DNA of 20,542 bases, taken from positions 1 to 20,542 of the forward strand of contig JALFGI010000137.1 of assembly GCA_022777455.1 (NCBI GenBank). The letters are read 5' to 3'. The first letter of the stretch is position 1. Each line of letters begins with the position of its first letter. The translations under genes were made by a program, and so were the position numbers. The notes beneath the pieces were generated by a model, which saw nothing but the letters and a program-made list of their open reading frames with translations, searched no databases and was not told where the DNA came from. Source of the DNA: Clostridiales bacterium. Lineage in GTDB: Bacteria > Bacillota_A > Clostridia > Oscillospirales > Oscillospiraceae. Shown here piece by piece: positions 3,397 through 20,542 of this stretch.

Positions 3397-4761
3397 TCAG
3401 ATTTTCAAATCGGCCTTGACCGCATCAATCAGCGCGGACTGGGTGCGCTCCTTGCTTCGCAGTGCCTTCATGATCCGCTCGTCAATGGTGCCTTTGGTGA
3501 TGATGTGCTGCACCACCACGGTTTTGGAGGTCTGGCCTTGCCGCCAGAGACGGGCTACGGTCTGTTGGTAGAGTTCCAGACTCCAGGTCAGGCCGAACCA
3601 CACCAGCGTTGAGCCGCCGGACTGGAGATTCAAACCATGACCCGCCGATGCCGGGTGGATCAACGCCACCGGAATCTCACCGTTGTTCCATCTGCGAATG
3701 CTGTCGGAAGTGTCCAGCTTGGAAAACGGGATATGGCACTTTTTCAGCCGTTCCGAAATGCGGTCATAATCATGCTTGAACCAGTAGGCCACCAGAACCG
3801 GATTGCCGTTAGCCACTTCGATGATATCTTCCAAAGCGTCCAGCTTGCGGTCATGGATGTTGTGGACATCACCGGCATCATCGTATATGGCACCGTTGGC
3901 AAGCTGGCTCAGTTTTCCGGAGAGGGATGCGGCGTTGGCAGCAGTGATTTCTCCACCCGGGATGGTCAGAACCAGTTCACGCTTCAGATCCTCATAGTCT
4001 TCCTGTTCGGAATCGGACAGACGCACGATATATTCGCTGCTGACCAGTTCCGGCATCTGCAGGTGGTCGGTGGACTTCATGGAAATTGTGATATCGGAAA
4101 TCTGCCTGTAAATGGCATCCTCCGCATACGGCAATGGTTTGTAGGAGTAAATGATCTGACCGTTCCGTTTGTCCGGCATAAAGTAGTCGGTGCGGTACTT
4201 GGTGATAAACCGCCCCAGCCGCTGGCCCATGTCCAGTATGCGGAACTCTGCCCACAGATCCATCAGGCCGTTGGAGGCGGGAGTGCCGGTCAGGCCAACA
4301 ATGCGGCTGACCTTGGGTCTGACTTTCAGCAGGGACTTGAACCGCTTTGTGTTGTGGTTCTTGAAGGAGGACAGCTCGTCAATCACGATCATGTCGAAGG
4401 TGAAGGGAATGCCGCTTTCCTCAACGAGCCACTGGACATTTTCCCGGTTGATGATGTAAATGTCAGCCTGCCGCATAAGCGCCGCTTTGCGTTCTGTCTC
4501 AGTGCCGACAGCCACGGAGCAGATGAGGCTCTGAAGGTGATCCCACTTATCCACTTCAGCCGTCCATGTGTCCCGTGCCACACGCAGGGGTGCAATCACC
4601 AGCACCCGGTGAACCTCGAAGCTGTCAAACAGCAGGTCAAAAATGGCGGTCAGCGTAATGCTCGTTTTGCCAAGGCCCATGTCCAAAAGGACTGCTGCGA
4701 TGGGGTGGGTTTCGATGTAGTCAATGGCATAAGCCTGGTAGTCATGAGGCTTGTATCTCAT
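3397..4761 (-). CDS. SNF2-family DEAD/DEAH helicase
   Basis: The 454-aa product starts MRYKPHDYQAYAIDYIETHP. It shows a superfamily 2 helicase layout: a Q-motif-like start, Walker A DMGLGKTS (about residues 27-34), VLVIAPLRVARDTW, motif II VIDELSSF (about 122-129), LTGTPASNGLMDLW, and the C-terminal RecA-like half with HGLNLQSGGSTLVWF and motif VI TVARLWRQGQTSKT. Phage SNF2 proteins of this type remodel or translocate on dsDNA during replication or packaging. The start at 4761 is chosen because GGAGGT lies seven bases upstream; it overlaps the end of the VRR-NUC gene by 20 bases. The nuclease and helicase genes are a recurring pair, probably working on the same DNA intermediate. Confidence 0.92.
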   Translation of the reverse strand: MRYKPHDYQAYAIDYIETHPIAAVLLDMGLGKTSITLTAIFDLLFDSFEVHRVLVIAPLRVARDTWTAEVDKWDHLQSLICSVAVGTETERKAALMRQADIYIINRENVQWLVEESGIPFTFDMIVIDELSSFKNHNTKRFKSLLKVRPKVSRIVGLTGTPASNGLMDLWAEFRILDMGQRLGRFITKYRTDYFMPDKRNGQIIYSYKPLPYAEDAIYRQISDITISMKSTDHLQMPELVSSEYIVRLSDSEQEDYEDLKRELVLTIPGGEITAANAASLSGKLSQLANGAIYDDAGDVHNIHDRKLDALEDIIEVANGNPVLVAYWFKHDYDRISERLKKCHIPFSKLDTSDSIRRWNNGEIPVALIHPASAGHGLNLQSGGSTLVWFGLTWSLELYQQTVARLWRQGQTSKTVVVQHIITKGTIDERIMKALRSKERTQSALIDAVKADLKI

Positions 4762-5023
4762 CCAGGATACCTCCAATCTGTTCTTCGTTGTCCAGGACAT
4801 AGACCTTGAAGCCGAGGCGGGTCAGTAATTTGTGCCTTGCGATTTGGAGCGGGCGGGGCTTTTTGCCGGGAGCCTTGACCTCCACAAAGGCAAAATGGCA
4901 ACCCGGCAGCAGCACGATTCGGTCGGGCATCCCATCATATCCGGGAGACACGAATTTCGGACAGATGCCGCCGCGCTTTTTTACCATCAGGGATAATTTT
5001 TGCTCGATTGCTTTTTCTCTCAT
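4742..5023 (-). CDS. VRR-NUC domain nuclease
   Basis: The 93-aa product starts MREKAIEQKLSLMVKKRGGI and is essentially a single VRR-NUC domain of the PD-(D/E)xK superfamily. The catalytic residues are visible as GYDGMPDRIVLL (D34) and FAFVEVKAPG (E48, K50), followed by a conserved Gln (Q60). This family is found as a stand-alone nuclease in phages and fused in FAN1, where it cuts branched DNA. The start at 5023 follows a GGAG site about eight bases upstream. It is followed with overlap by the SNF2 helicase and preceded by a 140-base non-coding region carrying inverted operator-like repeats. Confidence 0.9.
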   Translation of the reverse strand: MREKAIEQKLSLMVKKRGGICPKFVSPGYDGMPDRIVLLPGCHFAFVEVKAPGKKPRPLQIARHKLLTRLGFKVYVLDNEEQIGGILDEIQAS

Positions 5024-5056
5024 AATGTGTTCTCCATCTTGATTTCCGGCAAAGTG

Positions 5057-5156
5057 CAAGGTGTATCAATGTCTTTTCCTAAACTTTTCCTTATGGTTTT
5101 TTCTGAAATTTTCCCTTAAGAAAACTTTTATATATGACCTTGATACACCTTGTCAT
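5057..5156 (-). promoter_or_regulatory. Promoter with paired 13-bp inverted operators upstream of VRR-NUC
   Basis: CAAGGTGTATCAA at 5057-5069 recurs exactly inverted at 5140-5152. On the minus strand ATGACA (5156-5151) and TATAAA (5132-5127) form a plausible -35/-10 pair 18 bp apart, with the distal repeat inside the spacer. The second repeat lies in the presumed 5' leader, about 83 bp away centre to centre, close to eight helical turns. This suggests a repressible promoter with looping operators for the nuclease-helicase genes. The A/T-rich middle also holds two related TAAGG(G)AAAA tracts. Confidence 0.45.
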
Positions 5157-5164
5157 TGCCGCGC

Positions 5165-7432
5165 TTAGTTCAGAAAATCCTCGTCCTCGGACTTCAGGCT
5201 CAGGCCCTTAAAATAGCGCTTACGGCTTACCACCAAACGCTCGAAGCCTGCGTTCTCCAGCGCCAGATAGAAGTCAGCGGTGTTGCGCACATACTCGTTG
5301 CAGTCCAGACAGTAGTTGCGATATGCCTGATACAGCGCACTGGAGCTCTCCTTCAAGCCATCGCCCACATCGCATTTCTCGGCCAGGAAATTGCCAAACC
5401 AGTCATTCTGGCTGCGGTAATCATCAATGGCTTTCTGTACGATAGCGGGAACAGGAAATTTGTAGTCCAGGTCAATGACCTTTTTGGCACCCTCGATGAT
5501 CCAGGCGAGAATGCTTTCGGCGGCATTCTGATACAGGTAGTCACCGTAATTTTTGATGTCGCTCTTGCCCTCAATCTTGGCATTGAACGGGATCACGATC
5601 AGGCGACGCCAGGTGCCATCGTCAGAGGCACTGACCCTGGGGAGGTGATTGGTGTACAGCACCAGGCTGTGGCTGGGAGAGAAGCTGAACGGGTCCTTGT
5701 ATTTCTTTTCGGCAAAGATATCATCGGTGGAACAAAGCTGTTTGACGGTAGAGTCATTCAGACGCGCACCTTCCTGCATCTCTGCTGCGATGAGCAGACG
5801 CTTTCCCTTGACCTCGGCCATCTCTGGCTTCACATTGCGGCGGCATCCGAAGGTCAGCGTGTCGGCAGAGATGTTGCCGCTGTAAAGACCCATGACGCGG
5901 GAGATGGAGTTCCAGAAGGTGGACTTGCCGTTGCGGCCACAGCCATAGGCAATGATGAGGGCCTCGACCTGTACCTTACCGATTGCAGCAAGGCCGCAGA
6001 TCAGCTGCACATAGTCGATGAGTTCCTGATCGCCGCAGAAGATGGTGTCCAGGCAGTCCAGCCAGATCTGTTTGCCACGGTCACCGGGAGAGACTGTGGT
6101 GGTCTTGGTGATGAAATCCTCTGGGGAATGCTCCCTTGCTCCGGCCATACCCAGGCGCAGATCATAGGTGGCGTCCGGGGTGCAGAGCAGGAAGGGGTTC
6201 GCATCCAAATCCTGTGGCGTGATTTCCAGCATCGGACGGGACTCCTTCAGCGTGGCGGTGATGTTTTTGGATGCGCGCCGCTGAATGACATAGGACTGAT
6301 ATGCTTTCGCCGCAAGGAATGCCTTGTATGCTTCCAGCTGTTCATCGTTCATCATGCTTTCGGCCTTAGCTTTGCTGGTGTTTTCCAGGATTTCCTGTGC
6401 GCCGCAAGCCTTAAGTGCGGCGAGGGCCGAGAGCATATCGTTGGATGCCTCCCTCATCTGACGGCGGGTCAGTTCATGGGCAACGGCCTGTGCGCCGGGT
6501 TCAGTTTCTTGCCAGTACCGACCGTTGTAGCGGATGTAGTGAGTTGCCGGAGAATAACGCAGTTCCCCGGAGAAGTGCTTTGCCAGCACCTCGGCCTGTC
6601 CTACATCGGAAAAATCGTCCGGCTTGTAGGAGGTATCATCGTTGTACAGTTCGGGAGGGACGTATCCGTCCTGCTGTTGAACCTTGGCATAGAACTTCTG
6701 TGCGGAGTGCCAAATGGTCATCAGTTCCTGCTGTTCCAGCGGAGGAGTGCATTTGTCCGCTTCTTCCATAAAGCAGTTGAAGGCTTCTTCGCAGTCACCA
6801 TATTTCTTGATAACGCGACCGGCAAAGCGGGACATAGTGGCGTTACGGCTTCCTTCGGGAATAACCTGCGTGCCACCGTGGGAACCGCCGGGCAGATCCG
6901 CATCGAAATCGTCAGCGGAAAGATATTCGCTCAAGGTCATCTCGCCGGGGTACATTTCCACCTCTGGGGTAGCTGTGCCGAAGAAGAACCGGGCGGCATC
7001 CAGCGCCTTGGTATCGAAGTATGGGAAAATGGTATTGACCAGCTTCTTCATTTCGCTGTAAGCGGCAGCGTCCGTCATGTACTCGATGGGAAACAGCACA
7101 TGGAACTTAGGCCGGGCGGGTTTTCCATTCTTTTCACGCATATGGAACCGGCTGTAATGCACCGCAAAACTGATGCCGGGAAATGCGGCCTGGACATCTG
7201 CCGGGGTGACCCAATCGGCAGGGTTCTCGGAGTGGTCATTGTCACAGTCCACGGGCAGGCAATCGGAGCCGAGGAAATTATCACCGTTGCGGTAGCTGTT
7301 CATATACTCGGCGCAGACATAGTCGTGGCTGACCGCCGCAGCGAGAGTGGTCTCATCCGTTACGATGATCTTGTGGGGATAGGAGCAGTTGCCGGGAGAA
7401 TTGATATAATCCGCACTGTACAGCGTGAACAT
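5165..7432 (-). CDS. D5/P4-type phage primase-helicase
   Basis: The 755-aa product starts MFTLYSADYINSPGNC. The N-terminal part resembles an archaeo-eukaryotic-type primase (LPVDCDNDHSENPADW, then SRFHMREKNGKPARPKFHVL, then DARFFFG). A D5_N-like middle region (about residues 270-450) follows, then a superfamily 3 helicase domain with Walker A YGCGRNGKSTFWN (about residue 495), Walker B-like GKRLLIAAEM and FSPSHSLVLYTNHLPRV (sensor region). This is the usual phage/plasmid replication primase-helicase that opens and primes the origin. The ATG shares its A with the stop of the upstream 107-aa gene (TGATG), so translation is probably coupled. Its size is normal for the family. Confidence 0.93.
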   Translation of the reverse strand: MFTLYSADYINSPGNCSYPHKIIVTDETTLAAAVSHDYVCAEYMNSYRNGDNFLGSDCLPVDCDNDHSENPADWVTPADVQAAFPGISFAVHYSRFHMREKNGKPARPKFHVLFPIEYMTDAAAYSEMKKLVNTIFPYFDTKALDAARFFFGTATPEVEMYPGEMTLSEYLSADDFDADLPGGSHGGTQVIPEGSRNATMSRFAGRVIKKYGDCEEAFNCFMEEADKCTPPLEQQELMTIWHSAQKFYAKVQQQDGYVPPELYNDDTSYKPDDFSDVGQAEVLAKHFSGELRYSPATHYIRYNGRYWQETEPGAQAVAHELTRRQMREASNDMLSALAALKACGAQEILENTSKAKAESMMNDEQLEAYKAFLAAKAYQSYVIQRRASKNITATLKESRPMLEITPQDLDANPFLLCTPDATYDLRLGMAGAREHSPEDFITKTTTVSPGDRGKQIWLDCLDTIFCGDQELIDYVQLICGLAAIGKVQVEALIIAYGCGRNGKSTFWNSISRVMGLYSGNISADTLTFGCRRNVKPEMAEVKGKRLLIAAEMQEGARLNDSTVKQLCSTDDIFAEKKYKDPFSFSPSHSLVLYTNHLPRVSASDDGTWRRLIVIPFNAKIEGKSDIKNYGDYLYQNAAESILAWIIEGAKKVIDLDYKFPVPAIVQKAIDDYRSQNDWFGNFLAEKCDVGDGLKESSSALYQAYRNYCLDCNEYVRNTADFYLALENAGFERLVVSRKRYFKGLSLKSEDEDFLN

Positions 7433-13916: not shown

Positions 13917-14480
13917 ATGGAATTCAAGGACTTCGTGCAAATACTGCATCCGATAATTGGCGGGTCAAGTAGCCAGGGGGCTTTTGTAAAAACACTTTTT
14001 GAAGTCATCGTCACGGAAGATGGCCAAAGTGCGCTGGACGAGCAGTCTGAGGTCACTTATCGTTCTTATTTCAATGGACAAACGGGCATCTCCAGAATTG
14101 CAAAGAAGATTAGCCCATATATCGAAACTGAAAATTTTGTGTCCTACATCCATGACTTTTCGGATGAGACGGTTTTGAGTCTTTGTGACAGTTTTAGGGA
14201 ATACCTGCCTGAAATAGATAGCTTCAACGCAGGAAGGCAGCTGGCAGATTTGTTCCTTTCTATTTTGAAAAATGCTGCCGGGACAAAAAGAAAAAGCCCA
14301 GCATCATCAGAAGATGACGCTGAACCAATAGAGGCGGAGGTCGTGGATGACGATGAGCCATCAGGTGCCGCCCAAAACGATAAAAAAATGACCGTTATTC
14401 AACAGCAGATCAATGTCATCCAAAACGGAGAAAAAAACTTCAATCTGACGAATAACGGTACGATGAACTTTAACTTTTGA
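13917..14480 (+). CDS. Unknown protein, first component of a three-gene ATPase system
   Basis: The 187-aa product begins MEFKDFVQILHPIIGGSSSQ. Residues 1-115 form a compact, probably helical domain (TYRSYFNGQTGISRIAKKIS, then ENFVSYIHDFSDETVLSLCD). An acidic linker (about 125-152) follows. The last 30 residues (MTVIQQQINVIQNGEKNFNL, then TNNGTMNFNF) are an Asn-rich, beta-strand-like tail. I do not recognise the domain. No signal peptide or membrane segment is seen. GAGGAG precedes the ATG. The next gene starts 11 bases after the stop, and its N-terminus carries a similar Asn/Gly-rich segment, so the two proteins may assemble through it. It could be an adaptor or sensor for the ABC ATPase encoded two genes on. 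Base composition appears more AT-rich than in the phage block. Confidence 0.8.
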   Translation: MEFKDFVQILHPIIGGSSSQGAFVKTLFEVIVTEDGQSALDEQSEVTYRSYFNGQTGISRIAKKISPYIETENFVSYIHDFSDETVLSLCDSFREYLPEIDSFNAGRQLADLFLSILKNAAGTKRKSPASSEDDAEPIEAEVVDDDEPSGAAQNDKKMTVIQQQINVIQNGEKNFNLTNNGTMNFNF

Positions 14481-14491
14481 GGCGGTACATT

Positions 14492-15142
14492 ATGAACAAC
14501 GATCTGAGCATTAAGCAGACCGACCAACTGGCTACCCCCACCCTACAGCAGACCGGTACTAACAATGTTGCTGTATCCAATCAGCCGGGAGGCACGGTCA
14601 ACTTAACATACAATATTAATTATCCCCAGATGGCAGACTCCTCGGCAGAGATGATGATTGCCATCCAATCCTTCAGCAAGGAGTATTATCAGCTGATTGT
14701 TACTTGCGATGAGGATGTTTTTAGCACGGGCGTGGTGTCGGTGATCGCAAACCGTGCGTTAACAAAATACAATGTTCCGCCGGAGATTTTTGACAGATGT
14801 TCTACTCTCACGGAAGAGGGCATTGCGGAACTGAAACGTTTCCCGGCAATCATCTGCAAGGAAAATACAGAGATGAAGGGCGTAACTTCTCCCGACCAAT
14901 ACTGTATGCTGTGCTATATCCAGAAGGTGATGAAGGTTGGAAAAAATATAAAAATCGCATTTAAGCCGATTGCACCCATTCAGCAGTTGAAACTGTGTGA
15001 CAAACGGAATGCAATGTTCTTCGGCTTGAATATGGATTGCGCGATTACGGACCTGAACCATAGCGCCTGGTCCGTTCGTAAAGTAAATGTATTCGAGGCG
15101 TTTAAGGAAGCCGGAATTCCGGGCATTCCGATGCCTGTATAA
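14492..15142 (+). CDS. Unknown protein, second component of a three-gene ATPase system
   Basis: The 216-aa product begins MNNDLSIKQTDQLATPTLQQ. Its first 50 residues contain TNNVAVSNQPGGTVNLTYNI, a segment like the tail of the preceding protein. The remainder (about 55-200) is a globular domain with FSKEYYQLIVTCDEDVFSTG, then CKENTEMKGVTSPDQYCMLC, then KVGKNIKIAFKPIAPIQQLK. No known catalytic motif is evident. The ATG at 14492 has AGGCGG about six bases upstream; an in-frame TTG at 14477 is less likely. It ends 12 bases before the ABC ATPase, joined by a perfect GGAGGTG site. The arrangement resembles the middle component of the computationally described ABC three-component systems, but I cannot assign the family from sequence alone. 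Confidence 0.8.
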   Translation: MNNDLSIKQTDQLATPTLQQTGTNNVAVSNQPGGTVNLTYNINYPQMADSSAEMMIAIQSFSKEYYQLIVTCDEDVFSTGVVSVIANRALTKYNVPPEIFDRCSTLTEEGIAELKRFPAIICKENTEMKGVTSPDQYCMLCYIQKVMKVGKNIKIAFKPIAPIQQLKLCDKRNAMFFGLNMDCAITDLNHSAWSVRKVNVFEAFKEAGIPGIPMPV

Positions 15143-15154
15143 GGAGGTGTCTTT

Positions 15155-17437
15155 ATGGCTGACAAAATCAAATCAGAGATTGTCCGCATTGATTTGACGG
15201 ATGCAAGCTATAAGGACAGCCATGCCTATATTGAGCCGACCTATGTCAATTTCTTCTTCGGCAATAATGGCGCTGGTAAATCTACGATAGCAAAAGCCAT
15301 AAAAAGCGGTGCTGGCATAACCTACGCTCCCGGGAGAACAGCATCAGATTATTTGCCACTGGTATATAACCAGGATTTCATTGATGAGAATTTTCGCAGC
15401 TACCGTAATATGAAAGGCGTGTTTACGCTGAACGCTAAAAATGCGGAAATCCAAAAACAGATTGACGAGGTTACGGAAAAGCGTACTCAAGTAAAGAAAC
15501 TCTTGTCCGAGGCAAGTGACAAGAGAGGTAAAATTGCCAACGCTAAAGATAAGCTGCACAAGGATTTCCTTAAAGAGTGTTGGGAACGCGGCAGAACTCT
15601 CCGTGATGATTTTCCAGGTACCATGGACAAAAAGGGAAAGTCTGATCCATTTGCCCGTGAAATTTTGAAGCACGCCCCGGCAGATATTGATATGGAGGAT
15701 TTGCGGCGGCTTTATGAATCGGCGTACTCTGAAACAGCAAAGCGTTACCAAAGGTTTACTACTATCGCTGACCCTATGGTTATGGACACGGTAGATGGAC
15801 GAGAAATACTGAGTAAGCCCATTGTCAATAGTGCAGATACTGAACTTGCCGGATTCCTGCGTGATATTGGCGCAACGGAATGGATGCGGCAAGGGCATGA
15901 TGCGTATTCTCATAATGCGAACGGAAGATGTCCATATTGCGGCGGTGATTTACCTGCGGATTTTGAGCAAACCTTTATTGCCAGCTTTGACAACAGGTAT
16001 CAGGAAAACCTGCGTCTCCTGGATGAATTTCTGGCGCGGTATAAAAAATCTGCAAATGAGTTATTCGTGCCTTTACAGACAACACCGGTCGAACTGTATC
16101 CGCAAATTGATCTGAAACCGTATGCCGATAAGCTGGCAGTCCTCAAGGCGGCTATTCAGGCCAACATCGAAACGATAAAGTCCAAAACGGAGAATCCAGC
16201 TTCTGCAGTAGCTCTTACAGATATTCAGCCCATTCTTGAAGATTTAGCTGAGATCATTAATGGATTTAATTCTTTGATTGACGCAAATAACGCCATCGTT
16301 GCTGCGGGTCCTACCAAGCGTACTGAATGCACCGATGCTGTCTTCAGCCTTCTCGCTTTTATGCTGAAGGATGTCATTGCTACCTATAGGAAAAGTGATG
16401 GAGATATGCAGGCTGAACTGGACGCTCTTGATGCGGAAATAAAGGCGCACAATGCCACTCTGGATGAAATCAAGACACAGCTCAAGACGCTCCGGGGAAA
16501 AACGGTAGAAACGGATACCGCTAAAGACAGCATCAATCTTATGCTGCACGATTCAGGTATGCGAGGCTTCAGCCTTGAACCAAAGGCTGGGGTCGACAAC
16601 GTATATGAAGTGCGCCGTCCTGATGGTACCATAGCTGATAATTTGAGTGAGGGCGAAAAGAACTTTATCGCGTTTCTGTATTTCTACCATCTGGTACACG
16701 GAAGCGACTCTGCTGACGGCGAAACCAGAGAGAAAATCGTTGTCATCGATGATCCTGTTTCCAGTATGGACAGCGGTTCACTATTTATTGTAAGCACTCT
16801 TGTTCGGCAGATGATTGAGATCTGCAGGAACAATGCCGACAACCGGAACCGAACAGCCGAAGGAAACTTCATTAAACAGATTTTTATTCTAACCCATAAT
16901 GCGTACTTCCACAGAGAGGTGTCTTACAGCTATGTGGCAAAGTACGATTATGCATCATTTTATCTGATTCGCAAGATCGGCACAAAATCCACGATTAAGC
17001 TGTGTGATGATGTTAATCCGAATGCGCCGACCGAACGGATAAATGTGAACCCAGTCAAAAATTCTTATGCTGCTCTTTGGGATGAGTATAAAGAAGTACA
17101 GTCCGCAGTTCCGCTGATGAATGTCATTCGCCGCATTCTGGAATATTACTTCCTTCAGTTATGCGGATACGAAGGGTCGCAGCTTCGTCAGGTCATTTTG
17201 ATTCAGGGCAAAGCTGAGGGCCGATTTAAGGATGCTGATGGCAATGACGATGAAGAAAAATTTCAACTTGCCTCCGCCATGTTGGCATACATCAATGCAA
17301 GTTCTATAGGTATGAGTGATGGTATGGACTTTGTCGAAGATTGTCTAAATGCCGATGAGTGCCGGAGCATTTTTGAAATGATATTTGACGCCATGGAACA
17401 GAAGCAGCACTATGACATGATGATGGGAAATCAGTAA
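15155..17437 (+). CDS. RloC/PrrC-like ABC ATPase (AAA_13 type) with zinc-hook-like motif
   Basis: The 760-aa product shows Walker A FFGNNGAGKST (about residues 35-44), a Q-loop-like VYNQDFIDENF, a coiled-coil region, CPYCGG (C259, C262) in mid-protein like a zinc hook, more coiled coil, the ABC signature LSEGEKN (497-503), Walker B VVIDDPVSSMD (529-539) and a switch histidine in FILTHNAYFH. This order is that of RloC/PrrC, stress-responsive ATPases whose C-terminus cuts tRNA anticodon loops during phage infection. In the C-terminal region R659 and E663 give the R-x3-E spacing of PrrC. The His expected further on seems missing: where I expect an N-x-x-S-H type motif, the sequence reads YINASSIGMSDG. 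It may be an inactive nuclease that signals through the two small upstream proteins, or a different effector. GGAGGTG precedes the ATG. Confidence 0.85.
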   Translation: MADKIKSEIVRIDLTDASYKDSHAYIEPTYVNFFFGNNGAGKSTIAKAIKSGAGITYAPGRTASDYLPLVYNQDFIDENFRSYRNMKGVFTLNAKNAEIQKQIDEVTEKRTQVKKLLSEASDKRGKIANAKDKLHKDFLKECWERGRTLRDDFPGTMDKKGKSDPFAREILKHAPADIDMEDLRRLYESAYSETAKRYQRFTTIADPMVMDTVDGREILSKPIVNSADTELAGFLRDIGATEWMRQGHDAYSHNANGRCPYCGGDLPADFEQTFIASFDNRYQENLRLLDEFLARYKKSANELFVPLQTTPVELYPQIDLKPYADKLAVLKAAIQANIETIKSKTENPASAVALTDIQPILEDLAEIINGFNSLIDANNAIVAAGPTKRTECTDAVFSLLAFMLKDVIATYRKSDGDMQAELDALDAEIKAHNATLDEIKTQLKTLRGKTVETDTAKDSINLMLHDSGMRGFSLEPKAGVDNVYEVRRPDGTIADNLSEGEKNFIAFLYFYHLVHGSDSADGETREKIVVIDDPVSSMDSGSLFIVSTLVRQMIEICRNNADNRNRTAEGNFIKQIFILTHNAYFHREVSYSYVAKYDYASFYLIRKIGTKSTIKLCDDVNPNAPTERINVNPVKNSYAALWDEYKEVQSAVPLMNVIRRILEYYFLQLCGYEGSQLRQVILIQGKAEGRFKDADGNDDEEKFQLASAMLAYINASSIGMSDGMDFVEDCLNADECRSIFEMIFDAMEQKQHYDMMMGNQ

Positions 17438-17451
17438 AGGAGAAACTAAAA

Positions 17452-17655
17452 ATGCGTATCAGCTACAATAAATTGTGGAAGATGCTTATCGATAAGAATA
17501 TGAAGAAAAGCGACCTAAAAGAGAAAGCTGGTATCAGTTCAGCATCCATCGCCAAACTCGGCAAGGGCGACAATATCACCACGGATGTTCTGATTAAGAT
17601 TTGCGAGTCCTTGGACTGCCGTTTGGAAGATATTATGGAGACGGTAGATGACTAA
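17452..17655 (+). CDS. Cro/C1-type (Xre) helix-turn-helix regulator
   Basis: The 67-aa product begins MRISYNKLWKMLIDKNMKKS. The helix-turn-helix is KSDLKEKAGISSASIAKLGK followed by NITTDVLIKICESLDCRLED, a standard compact Xre repressor fold that is the whole protein. AAAGGAG precedes the ATG, 14 bases after the ATPase stop. It sits between the ATPase genes and the methyltransferases, so it could act as a controller (C protein) for the restriction-modification genes, or repress the entire island by binding the TGATAGG repeats upstream. Which of these holds is not visible. Confidence 0.9.
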   Translation: MRISYNKLWKMLIDKNMKKSDLKEKAGISSASIAKLGKGDNITTDVLIKICESLDCRLEDIMETVDD

Positions 17656-17743: not shown

Positions 17744-18505
17744 ATGGCAAAACAAGTGAAATCCAAGCAGCGTGTAGCTGATCACGGTGAGGTGTTTACA
17801 GCCGAGCGTGAAGTAGAAGCGATGTGCGACTTGGTAAAACAAGAAACGGAACGAATCGACAGCCGGTTTTTGGAGCCAGCCTGCGGGGATGGGAATTTTT
17901 TGTCCGTCATCCTGCAGCGAAAGCTGACAATCGTGACTAAAAAATATAGACGCAGCGCTTACGATTGGGAGCGCAACTCTTTGCTGGCTCTTGGCAGTGT
18001 ATATGGCGTGGACATCATGCTGGATAACGTTCTCGCCTGCCAGGGTCGTCTGTTTGAGATCTGGAATAAGGAATACAAAAAGGTCTGCAAAAAAGAGTGC
18101 AATGACGAGACGCGGGAGGCGGCTCGATTTATCCTCCGTTTGAACATTGTCTGTGGAAATGCATTAACTTTGCTGTGCTGCGATGACAATGGCCAAGAGT
18201 TAAATGTTCCTATTATCTTCTCTGAATGGACGTTCCCATTCAATGATGCCCGGATGCAGCGCAAGGACTATACTTTCGCCGAGCTTTTGGCAGAAGAGGA
18301 ACCGACCGGCAAGAAGAAAAAGACAGCGGATGAGGACTTCGTTCAGGGAACACTCTTCGACATGGAGCCGGAGCAGCCGGATGACGAAGGAGAATTTCTT
18401 CAGCAATATATAGCGCATTATCGGCACATTCAAGACGATGACACTCGATGGAGAGAAGCATATCTCCACATACACCCGACGAAGGAGGACAAGAGTAATG
18501 GCTGA
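17744..18505 (+). CDS. N6-methyltransferase-like protein lacking the NPPY motif
   Basis: The 253-aa product begins MAKQVKSKQRVADHGEVFTA. It has the N6-adenine methyltransferase start HGEVFTAEREVEAM (about 14-27) and SAM-binding motif I FLEPACGDGNFL (42-53), then SVYGVDIMLDNV. The catalytic [DN]PP[YF] motif is not found; the corresponding region reads IIFSEWTFPFNDARMQRKDY, followed by a charged linker. It therefore seems to be a SAM-binding, non-catalytic subunit, or half of a two-chain enzyme with the next protein, which has the same start plus NPPY. The genes overlap by eight bases (ATGGCTGA). An 88-base gap after the Xre gene suggests it may have its own promoter. A specificity or regulatory role is inferred. 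Confidence 0.82.
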   Translation: MAKQVKSKQRVADHGEVFTAEREVEAMCDLVKQETERIDSRFLEPACGDGNFLSVILQRKLTIVTKKYRRSAYDWERNSLLALGSVYGVDIMLDNVLACQGRLFEIWNKEYKKVCKKECNDETREAARFILRLNIVCGNALTLLCCDDNGQELNVPIIFSEWTFPFNDARMQRKDYTFAELLAEEEPTGKKKKTADEDFVQGTLFDMEPEQPDDEGEFLQQYIAHYRHIQDDDTRWREAYLHIHPTKEDKSNG

Positions 18506-20036
18506 TGGTCTTTTTGATAATGTATATAACCCGGACGTGCTGTCCTGCCTGGCAAACCTCTCCAACGATGAGGTGTTTACGCCGCCTGATGTTGTGAATC
18601 AGATGTTGGATATGCTCCCCCAGGAACTGTTTTGCAATCCTGATACCACGTTTTTAGATCCGGCCTGCAAAACGGGAGTTTTTCTGCGGGAAATCGCAAA
18701 ACGACTGATTGTCGGTCTGGAGCCCCAGTTCCCGGATCTGCAGGAACGAATCGACCACATTTTCCATAAGCAGCTTTTCGGTATTGCCATCACCGAGCTG
18801 ACCAGTCTGCTTTCTCGAAGAGGTGTATATTGCTCAAAATATCCCAACAGCGAGTTTTCTGTATCTCTGTTCGACGATGCCCAAGGTAATATTCGATACA
18901 AGCGTGTACAACATACTTGGGTGGATGGCCGCTGCAAGTATTGCGGCATATCCAAAAAGACCGAGCTTGGTGACTCGGCCCGTGGTGAAACCTTGGAAAC
19001 TCACGCATATGAACTGATACACACGCTCAAGCCGGAGGAGATATTTGGTATGAAATTTGATGTTATTATCGGAAACCCGCCATACCAGCTTAATGATGGC
19101 GGTAATGGTGTAAGTGCAGCGCCAATTTTTCAGCTTTTCGTGGAACAGGCAATGAAGCTCAAGCCGCGTTATTTATCGATGATTATTCCTGCTCGTTGGT
19201 ACGCAGGCGGCAAAGGTCTTAATGAGTTCCGTGAAATGATGTTGAACAACCGCCATGTAAGAAAGCTTATGGACTATGAATCCAGTAAGGACTGTTTTTC
19301 TGGAGTTAATATTGCTGGCGGTATCTGTTATTTTCTTTGGGACCGTGATAATGCGGGTCCTTGCGAAATCACAAATTGTTCCCTTGATACTCCTACTGTA
19401 ATGGAGCGTGAGCTTAATGAGTTCCCGATCCTCATCCGCTCTAATATGGCTGTTTCTATTGTACATAAAGTTCTCGCGACGGGGTGCGAAGTGTATAGCG
19501 ACCACGCATATCCCAGAAACCCCTTCGGCTTTGCTACAAATTTCCGTGGACGCACCATGAAGGAACCGGGGGACATTGAACTGCTGACCAGTAAAGGTTT
19601 TCAGTTCATCCGTCGATCTGATGTCAAAAAGAATGCCGATATTATCGATCACTACAAAGTTCTTATTGGCCGTCTTGTTCCGAGTAATGGTGAGCTTGAT
19701 GTCGATCCCAAAGACGGATACCGCGTTATCACAGACACCCGTATTATCGGGCCTGGCCAAATTAACACGGAAACCTACCTGGATATTGGTGTGTTCAAAA
19801 CTGAGGCTGAAGCCCTCCATTTTGATAAATTCCTTAAATCCAAATTACCGCGCTTCCTGTTGCGACAGGCTATTTCTTCTCTGAATGTTACCCGTGAATG
19901 CTTCCGTTTTGTTCCTTATGTGGACTTCACGGAAGAATGGGACGATCAGCGCCTTTACAAGATGTACGGTTTGACTGAGGAGGAAATCCAGCTTGTCGAA
20001 GCCACAATAAGGCCTTTTGAAAGTGAGGCGAACTAA
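18498..20036 (+). CDS. Eco57I-like N6-adenine DNA methyltransferase
   Basis: The 512-aa product begins MADGLFDNVYNPDVLSCLAN. It contains NDEVFTPPDVVNQML (about 23-37), motif I FLDPACKTGVFL (52-63), a small CKYCG knuckle and catalytic NPPY (193-196, in FDVIIGNPPYQLNDGG). The C-terminal half (about 230-512) is typical of Eco57I-type enzymes and may hold target recognition. The start at 18498 follows AAGGAGG and is preferred over sequence further upstream inside the previous gene. The stop is directly followed by the next start (TAAATG). With the upstream NPPY-less paralogue and the downstream nuclease-helicase it makes up a restriction-modification-like set; it should methylate host DNA to protect it. 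Confidence 0.92.
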   Translation: MADGLFDNVYNPDVLSCLANLSNDEVFTPPDVVNQMLDMLPQELFCNPDTTFLDPACKTGVFLREIAKRLIVGLEPQFPDLQERIDHIFHKQLFGIAITELTSLLSRRGVYCSKYPNSEFSVSLFDDAQGNIRYKRVQHTWVDGRCKYCGISKKTELGDSARGETLETHAYELIHTLKPEEIFGMKFDVIIGNPPYQLNDGGNGVSAAPIFQLFVEQAMKLKPRYLSMIIPARWYAGGKGLNEFREMMLNNRHVRKLMDYESSKDCFSGVNIAGGICYFLWDRDNAGPCEITNCSLDTPTVMERELNEFPILIRSNMAVSIVHKVLATGCEVYSDHAYPRNPFGFATNFRGRTMKEPGDIELLTSKGFQFIRRSDVKKNADIIDHYKVLIGRLVPSNGELDVDPKDGYRVITDTRIIGPGQINTETYLDIGVFKTEAEALHFDKFLKSKLPRFLLRQAISSLNVTRECFRFVPYVDFTEEWDDQRLYKMYGLTEEEIQLVEATIRPFESEAN

Positions 20037-20542
20037 ATGGCACAAGAATTTTTTGTACAGCGACCTGCTGTAACCCCAACAATTTATGTCTATAACCTCC
20101 CGCAGGTCTCGACACATAAGGGGTATGTCAAGGTTGGGTATACAGATCGCGACGCAGTAACTCGCATTAATGAACAGATGCATACCAGCGGTCTGGCTGC
20201 TAATATCCTTTATACCGAGTCGGCCATGTGTTCCGATGGCTCGATCTTTACGGATAAGGATGTCCACCGCATTCTCCGCCGCAAGGGATTTCGTCAGATG
20301 AACGAGGGCAGCGACCGCAATGAATGGTTTAACTGCTCTGTGGACGATGTCAAGGCCGCCATTGTTGAACTGAAAACCGGAATTGTCACCGACGCCAGCC
20401 GTACCGCCACCTTCAAAATGCGCCCGGAACAGTACCAAGCGGTTAAGCGCACGATGGAGTATTATGCTTATGCTGCGAAAGAGGACCCCGGCAGACCGCC
20501 GAAGTTTCTCTGGAATGCAAAGATGCGTTTCGGAAAAACCTT
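20037..20542 (+). CDS. GIY-YIG nuclease-helicase restriction protein (partial, cut by window end)
   Basis: The visible 168 residues begin MAQEFFVQRPAVTPTIYVYN. The N-terminal domain is GIY-YIG/T5orf172-like: IYVYNLP, then KGYVKVGYTDRD, an Arg helix (VTRINEQMHTSG), HRILRRKGF and NEWFNC with a likely catalytic Glu. A helicase domain begins with RPEQYQAVKRTMEYY and Walker A NAKMRFGKT at the window edge. In related proteins a full DEAD/DEAH helicase follows. Translation is coupled to the methyltransferase through TAAATG. It is probably the DNA-cleaving, ATP-driven part of the restriction system: GIY-YIG nuclease plus translocase in one chain. The rest of the gene lies beyond the window. Confidence 0.87.
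   Translation, partial: MAQEFFVQRPAVTPTIYVYNLPQVSTHKGYVKVGYTDRDAVTRINEQMHTSGLAANILYTESAMCSDGSIFTDKDVHRILRRKGFRQMNEGSDRNEWFNCSVDDVKAAIVELKTGIVTDASRTATFKMRPEQYQAVKRTMEYYAYAAKEDPGRPPKFLWNAKMRFGKT

Follow-up and report, generated by a model that had tools for sequence, protein, structure and literature searches.

What is the task of three tightly spaced genes that lie in phage DNA of a Clostridiales bacterium? The locus belongs to contig JALFGI010000137.1 (assembly GCA_022777455.1), of which a stretch of 20,542 nucleotides, referred to below as the window, was analysed. Open reading frame (ORF) calls place the genes on the plus strand, at the positions that a preliminary description of the window had given, and they encode two small proteins, here designated P1 and P2, and an ABC ATPase. 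The tight packing and the separate ribosome sites stated in that description were confirmed: the products have 187, 216, and 760 amino acids (aa), the intergenic gaps measure 11 (P1–P2) and 12 bases (P2–ATPase), and the ribosome sites recognised by eye are GAGGAG ahead of P1, GAGGCGG ahead of P2, and AAGGAGGTG ahead of the ATPase gene. According to the interpretation proposed here, in which we place moderate confidence, the genes form a phage-borne module with the ATPase as sensor, P2 as adaptor, and P1 as output, coupled by matched sequence motifs in a manner that resembles amyloid signalling.

Related loci were gathered from species genomes and viral contigs by scans with the ATPase and then with a five-member alignment (A2); all five members of A2 have partners, so the resulting sample of 107 loci is biased towards close relatives. 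In 92 of these loci a homologue of P2, detected by a hidden Markov model (HMM), is encoded within 3.5 kb upstream of the ATPase, and the P1–P2–ATPase arrangement is far from chance. The conserved multi-gene unit that had been proposed is thus supported, and homologous ATPases standing without such partners, which had been named as evidence to the contrary, are the minority. Among the 15 loci without P2, ten belong, according to their record titles, to Bacteroidota or Sulfurimonas (L034–L038, L041, L043, L044, L046, L047), with ATPases that are 27–33% identical and in some cases partial. The remaining five are L055, L097, two partial matches (L045 and L107), and L025, whose 46% identical ATPase runs into the end of its contig. 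In L055 and L097 the ATPase is preceded by the same Mod/Res neighbours as in L111 and L112, and L055 also shares the gene between Res and the ATPase; therefore, P1 and P2 of these two loci may be encoded outside the sequence that was retrieved. P2 was found in 2 of 295 genomes of an order-level sample and in 5 of 398 genomes of a phylum-level sample. These are six distinct genomes, and in each of them the contig with P2 also encodes the ATPase, next to it in three cases and 10.8–11.5 kb away in the other three; in L111 and L112 the gap is filled by an operon that by eye resembles a type III restriction system and includes additional genes. Twelve distinct genomes have an ATPase match at E 1e-20, and the six of them that lack P2 comprise fragments or cut genes (G107, G296, G324, G585), an N-terminally truncated ORF (G277), and one RloC that is part of an operon for type I restriction (G486). 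Further viral scans with alignments A6, A4, and A7 yielded 2, 7, and 3 loci, most of which were already known.

P1 homologues end in a conserved tail of about 20 Asn/Gln-rich residues, and P2 homologues start with a similar motif. These motifs vary between operons, yet they match inside each operon. Examples, with the P1 tail given first, are VNQYGENNIHIDHVENLKI and VNQTGEKNVHIDHAENI in L017, QQNGDGNMVIPNYGTININ and VQTGNDNVLIPNYGTVNIN in L103, VHYGSGDIYSDIGTLNITKNYYGG and IHTGSGDIYSNIGTINQITYY in L059, TNIGHSVSKTYNIKDSTVTF and TNIGNQVIKTYNIQDSNVNIY in L049, and QNGEKNFNLTNNGTMNFNF and QTGTNNVAVSNQPGGTVNLTYNINY for the window type. Asn and Gln together make up 26% of the aligned motifs vs 11% of P1 and P2 as a whole. 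The match was quantified as the local BLOSUM62 score between the last 50 residues of P1 and the first 75 residues of P2 in 85 of the 107 loci, after removal of the 15 loci without P2, of five that have P2 but no detected upstream ORF (L010, L028, L031, L040, L062), and of two in which the ORF picked upstream of P2 is not an intact tail protein (L023, L094); where P1 is broken into two ORFs (L001, L006), the tail-bearing piece alone was used. In the strictest non-redundant set, whose P2 C-terminal parts are less than 50% identical (n = 25), own pairs score 55.1 on average and other pairs 29.6, and none of 5000 permutations of the partners reaches the own mean (highest permutation 40.3). The corresponding means are 58.9 vs 31.8 at 70% (n = 40) and 58.8 vs 33.0 at 90% (n = 56). 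Locus by locus, the own partner outscores the average of the other partners in 24 of the 25 cases and is the best one in 15. Control segments, taken from P1 just ahead of the tail and from the C-terminal part of P2, gave no significant difference between own and other pairs, the nearest being 23.9 vs 22.7 (p 0.087, n = 25). A motif-class table based on regular expressions, which was drawn up with the data already in view and serves for illustration only, assigns the same named class to both sides in 49 of the 85 pairs, leaves 27 unclassed on both sides, and lets the sides disagree in nine; at least L014, L033, L058, L069, and L088 do share their motif by eye despite this table.

Gene conversion or recent duplication was considered as a cause of the match and rejected: where the residues are identical, their codons agree at 161 of 304 sites, compared with 137.8 expected from per-locus and 126.5 from pooled codon use, and to this slight excess such events may contribute a little. 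Collection searches with the tail motifs alone, which have low power, returned one match at E 6 (a known Lactococcus P1) and otherwise none. Lactococcus plasmid pUCCL628C (L115, 12 kb) encodes P1, P2, and a small gene at 4459–6120, and its P1 tail and P2 N-terminus appear matched by eye.

The two small proteins had been described as unrecognised, and in Pfam and NCBIfam neither P1 nor P2 has a family match above cut-off. For P1, however, this holds only in part, because its residues 1–164 match the PADLOC model of LmuA (PDLC03857, model residues 1–171 of 327) with an E-value of 1.5e-18 and, weakly, HamA (2.9e-5). The suspected kinship to the ABC three-component (ABC-3C, Lamassu) systems is real, and the head of P1 is of the LmuA N-terminal type. 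The same head module is found in the LmuA and HamA models and is probably the recruited output. When solved structures were searched by sequence, none gave useful information on the ATPase or on either small protein. That head and tail are exchanged independently is visible in L005, L019, and L020: their P1 heads are 90–93% identical to that of the window, the tails (of the VNQYG type) only 18–21%, the P2 proteins 33–36%, and the ATPases 50%. The tail type of P1 follows the adjacent P2 and not its own head. In the illustrative motif-class table, the same tail types are found combined with either of two head types (MEFK and LCGG). Long P1 variants in L009, L012, L049, and L064 carry by eye an extra module between head and tail, and this module is present in both head types.

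The same joint exists within Lamassu itself. In protein P0141 a head that is 93% identical to that of P1 runs on into the Pfam domain CTD6 (ABC-3C), and the whole protein matches PADLOC LmuA. A search based on P0141 led to L120 and L121, where two genes are followed by LmuC (MC2, 1.8e-42 and 3.2e-44) and LmuB (8.6e-241 and 2e-238). In both loci gene 1 consists of the head and the tail VNQYGDHPVHIDHVENLKL, and gene 2 starts with VNQYGDRSVHADHVENLNV (L120) or VNQYGDRSLHADHIDNLNV (L121) and continues with CTD6. The LmuA model covers gene 1 of L120 with residues 1–144 and gene 2 with residues 144–327; in L121 it covers gene 2 with residues 141–327 and leaves gene 1 unmatched. A third split LmuA, L130, has the window-type motif on both sides, and its gene 2 is a CTD6 protein (8.1e-35; LmuA residues 147–324) on a contig that ends before any LmuC or LmuB. 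The own scores of these split pairs are 88 (L120), 81 (L121), and 41 (L130), each the best of its row (tied in L121). Against all known tails, the second genes of L120, L121, and L130 reach 80, 75, and 53 (maxima of 40 shuffles 41, 44, and 53), and five unsplit CTD6 proteins (P0141, L140, L131, L132, L136) reach 28–40, inside the shuffle range (maxima 43–48). One of the latter, L140, is a full unsplit LmuA (1–327) accompanied by LmuC and LmuB. Since the motifs occur on both sides of the split LmuA proteins and are absent from the unsplit CTD6 proteins, the motif pair seems to stand in for a covalent link. A single metagenomic protein, P0214, has the P1 head fused directly to the P2 core without the motifs, which could be a deletion or an assembly fault. 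The preliminary description, which was partly right overall, had missed this parallel as well as the matched motifs, which are a new finding, and the presence of the P1 head in the LmuA and HamA models.

The core of P2 also occurs elsewhere. On the Pseudomonas plasmids L114 and L118 it forms the N-terminal part of a TIR protein (TIR_2, 7.3e-9 for L114), and in a 12-sequence search the P2-core HMM matched such P2core-TIR proteins at 1.1e-19. A search with residues 1–138 of a P2core-TIR protein returned 498 relatives; a TIR domain is present in 111 of the 120 among the matches listed, and the nine without it appear truncated or frame-broken. These fusions make the P2 core look like a control module that can be used repeatedly, with an output part attached by fusion in one case (TIR) and by docking in the other (P1). 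Two tandem P2-like genes, each with an N-terminal motif that by eye is like the P1 tail, were observed in L027, L042, L090, and L091, which are nearly identical to one another, and in L098.

These elements could be combined as follows. The ATPase would be a sensor of the RloC/Rad50 type, in which the ATPase motifs and the CxxC hook are intact and the tRNA-cutting domain is disabled (see below). P2 would serve as adaptor, its core working with the ATPase and its N-terminus bearing the short motif, and P1 would be the output, with an exchangeable head held via the tail that matches the motif of P2. Phage-altered DNA or a disturbed restriction system might be the trigger. On sensing, the P2 motif would capture, and most likely template, the P1 tail in the manner of an amyloid signal, and the P1 heads thus gathered would stop the infected cell. 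The triplet is probably anti-phage, a role suggested by the kinship to PADLOC systems, the Lamassu parallel, the restriction-type neighbours (in at least 34 of the 107 loci with 11 queries), and the location in phage DNA.

Several observations weigh against this proposal. Firstly, some own pairs are poor: in the set of 25, L001, which represents the clade of the window, scores 28 (ninth, just under the mean of the others) and L087 scores 32 (tenth). On its own, even the pair of the window is weak: L002, which has the very same P1 and P2 sequences, scores 33, a rank of seven among the 25 partners, and when its P2 N-terminus is shuffled 300 times, 35 of the shuffles do as well, so that the score is not significant. 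Among the relatives of the window, L009 scores 36 (reached by 22 of 300 shuffles), and L003, L007, and L012 score 55, 58, and 57 (0 of 300 shuffles each); the motif pair of the window is therefore recognised mainly through its relatives. Secondly, the partnership has gaps, as ATPases without adjacent P2 exist in L025 and L055, and P1 and P2 occur without such an ATPase on the Lactococcus plasmid L115. Thirdly, the assigned roles can be questioned: no enzymatic signature is recognised in the P1 head, which also aligns with the N-terminal portion of nuclease-bearing HamA models and may therefore act as an adaptor rather than an effector, P2 is not an NTPase receptor, and in L083 an ATPase accompanied by P2 retains the Arg and Glu together with a Ser-His that aligns at Glu+56. 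Finally, the split pair of L130 is modest (its 53 equals the shuffled maximum), and the equivalence of fused and split forms is equally expected from simple one-to-one docking.

Such docking is a real possibility, although we lean against it. The motif pair would then be an ordinary beta-strand heterodimer that permanently joins the halves of a split protein, without amyloid or templating, and signalling would take place elsewhere in the complex. Motif-free fused versions, which this explanation accommodates well, are known for both systems (P0141 and L140 for LmuA, P0214 for P2). However, the Asn/Gln/Gly-rich composition fits the pairs and triplets of amyloid signalling better, as do the position of the motifs at protein ends, the many different but internally matched motif types, and the five loci in which two P2-like genes appear to carry a motif like the P1 tail.

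In our estimate, it is unlikely that the triplet is an ordinary Lamassu or ABC-3C system whose CTD and middle component (MC) have diverged beyond recognition. The match of the P1 head to the first half of LmuA, the similar gene order, and the comparable motif pairs of the split LmuA proteins would agree with this view. The comparison with the Pfam ABC-3C families that had been suggested, however, turned up no CTD family match in P1 or P2 up to E 1 and no MC match, and the PADLOC models gave no LmuC match either. Moreover, the ATPase of the window fits PADLOC PDC-S06 (6.6e-204) far better than the best LmuB model (3.9e-20), and the P2 core is fused to TIR in another family.

The preliminary description had classed the ATPase as an RloC-type toxin, and several of its features agree with this. 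It belongs to Pfam AAA_13 (E 1.3e-115), has the ABC ATPase motifs and the CxxC zinc hook of RloC, and keeps R-x3-E. In an alignment of 97 ATPases (the window and 96 loci with ORFs of more than 550 aa) the Walker A Lys is present in 96 (one gap), and the signature Ser and Gly, the Walker B Asp-Asp, and both hook cysteines are present in all, including the window; one sequence has an Asp-to-Gly exchange at the D-loop. According to the accessible text of PMC2610378, RloC requires Arg-x3-Glu-x36-52-His, often with Ser before the His, and replacement of R, E, or H by Ala in each case abolished its activity. This triad is incomplete in the window, where Ser-Ile occupies the Ser-His column. For 94 of the 97 ATPases (all but L025, L071, and L097) a Ser/Thr-His was sought 31–75 residues past the Glu. 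It is missing in 84 of the 86 with P2 in the locus, many of which are close relatives and do not represent independent losses, and it is present at Glu+42 to +46 in seven of the eight without P2, the sole exception being L055. A partnerless RloC within a type I restriction operon (L113) likewise has the complete triad in range. Of the two exceptions with P2, L069 has changed Arg and Glu residues, and L083, described above, speaks for the toxin. On the basis of the missing Ser/Thr-His, the ATPase is probably not a working RloC toxin, and an anticodon nuclease with two regulatory partners is very improbable. A homologue in Streptococcus phage Javan105 (L117, 6903–9164), annotated as translation-disabling ACNase RloC, has been counted in favour of that view; by eye its translation lacks the Ser-His of the triad. 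That the three genes are chance neighbours with separate functions can practically be dismissed, because, although unrelated genes could accumulate at a phage hot spot beside the divergent sigma-like gene (66 of 87 loci) and the motif pair of the window is weak alone, P1 and P2 motifs co-vary across the family, P2 is found upstream in most loci, and P1, P2, and the ATPase stay together even across about 11 kb of other genes.

The coordinates of the module and its nearest neighbours are compiled in the table. By eye, the remainder of the window looks like the replication module of a phage. Among annotated phages, the closest one found is NatCom_9287 (human faeces), which has a gene order identical to the window: P1, P2, the ATPase, a small gene, two DNA methyltransferases, two more genes, and a restriction endonuclease. 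In 28 of the 107 loci (97 of which have 400 bp available), the ATPase is followed within 400 bp by a homologue of the gene for the XRE-type helix-turn-helix (HTH) protein, and a short excisionase-like HTH gene was observed between P2 and the ATPase in 37 of the 107 (L024, L026, L056, and others). Positions 17744–20542 (plus strand), after the triplet, hold two methyltransferase-like genes and the start of another gene, probably a restriction-type system with two methyltransferase genes; homologues of all three are present in L004, L065, L073, L079, L082, and L089. On the other side, 66 of 87 related loci have a homologue of the sigma-like gene no more than 2.5 kb ahead of P1, on the minus strand in all of the 60 matches listed, and the place beside this gene is likely a conserved defence hot spot. 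In L120 and L121 a divergent gene looks similar by eye, and the homologue search for the sigma-like gene gave no match there.

Features of the three-gene module and its neighbours in the window.
Feature	Position	Strand	Remarks
Sigma-like phage gene	12731-13240	-	Divergent from the cassette
P1	13917..14480	+	187 aa; head of the LmuA/HamA N-terminal type (aa 1-122), then an acidic linker and the tail motif at the C-terminus
P1 tail motif VIQQQINVIQNGEKNFNLTNNGTMNFNF	14394..14477	+	aa 160-187; counterpart is the P2 N-terminal motif; weak in the window pair alone, strong family-wide
P2	14492..15142	+	216 aa counted from ATG; N-terminal motif and conserved core
P2 N-terminal motif LQQTGTNNVAVSNQPGGTVNLTYNINY	14543..14623	+	aa 18-44
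P2 core	14672..15130	+	aa 61-213; joined to a TIR domain in one family from proteobacteria
RloC-related ABC ATPase	15155..17437	+	760 aa; Pfam AAA_13, PADLOC PDC-S06
ATPase Walker A (GNNGAGKST)	15260..15286	+	
ATPase CxxC zinc-hook-like motif (CPYC)	15929..15940	+	aa 259-262
ATPase R-x3-E part of the RloC-type anticodon-nuclease triad	17129..17143	+	R659-E663
ATPase Ser-Ile aligned to RloC Ser-His	17303..17308	+	S717-I718; catalytic His absent
Small XRE-type HTH gene	17452..17655	+	67 aa; probable regulator

Compared with RloC and PrrC, the system shares the ABC head, the CxxC hook (RloC), R-x3-E, and restriction-modification neighbours in some loci, but it has lost the catalytic Ser-His and has two partner genes, which suggests that an annotation of such ATPases as RloC can mislead. 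PDC-S06, a phage defence candidate in PADLOC whose S we take to denote a single gene, corresponds to the ATPase, but here the ATPase is part of a three-gene unit. The accessible part of one paper lists PDC-S06 in a table of predicted systems, and our results suggest that this candidate, listed in its own right, is one part of such a unit. The proteobacterial P2core-TIR proteins likewise have the P2 core at the N-terminus but fuse TIR directly to it; no motif was found in L114, and no adjacent ATPase of this kind is annotated in L114 or L118. With ABC-3C or Lamassu systems (LmuA-LmuC-LmuB), described here after the review PMC10586767 and Pfam names, the triplet has in common the three genes, the exchangeable N-terminal LmuA module, and the ABC ATPase in last position. 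It differs in having no CTD or MC family, an RloC-type ATPase instead of LmuB, and the P2 core instead of CTD6 and the middle component. The Lamassu-type loci L120 and L121 (and L130, by its CTD6 gene) share the same kind of motif pair, which suggests that LmuA can be split in a Lamassu system.

As far as the accessible texts of PMC12261475 and PMC7889193 go, amyloid signalling motifs form pairs or triplets of receptor N-termini and effector C-termini, typically encoded by collocated genes, and BASS families were discovered via motifs repeated in adjacent genes (PMC9815663, accessible part). In other organisms, prion-like signalling of this sort links immune receptors with killer proteins. The pairs described so far occur with NLRs, and the review PMC7889193, in the part available, asks if signalling amyloids exist in NLR-independent pathways. 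The literature searched, outside which subscription papers and preprints largely lie, contained no account of Lamassu with amyloid and, going by titles and the starts of abstracts, no description of amyloid motifs in anti-phage ABC ATPase systems. Tentatively, and with the balance falling just short of even, we suggest that NLR-independent amyloid signalling may exist in bacterial and phage immunity, and that RloC-derived dead-nuclease ATPases and Lamassu might recruit one pool of exchangeable effector heads via fast-diversifying cognate prion-like motif pairs. The operons are a concrete candidate for such signalling, and because they offer many natural cognate pairs, swaps, and matched fused and split versions, the question can be tested with short peptides. 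Unlike BASS systems, the window has no NLR (no NACHT or NB-ARC match of P1, P2, or the ATPase in Pfam), and its ABC ATPase comes from a separate gene. What the operons share with the NLR- and Bell-associated BASS is a short motif that one protein carries at its C-terminus and the product of the adjoining gene at its N-terminus, a pattern that is seen across the family although the pair of the window alone is not significant, together with many sequence types and cognate pairs.

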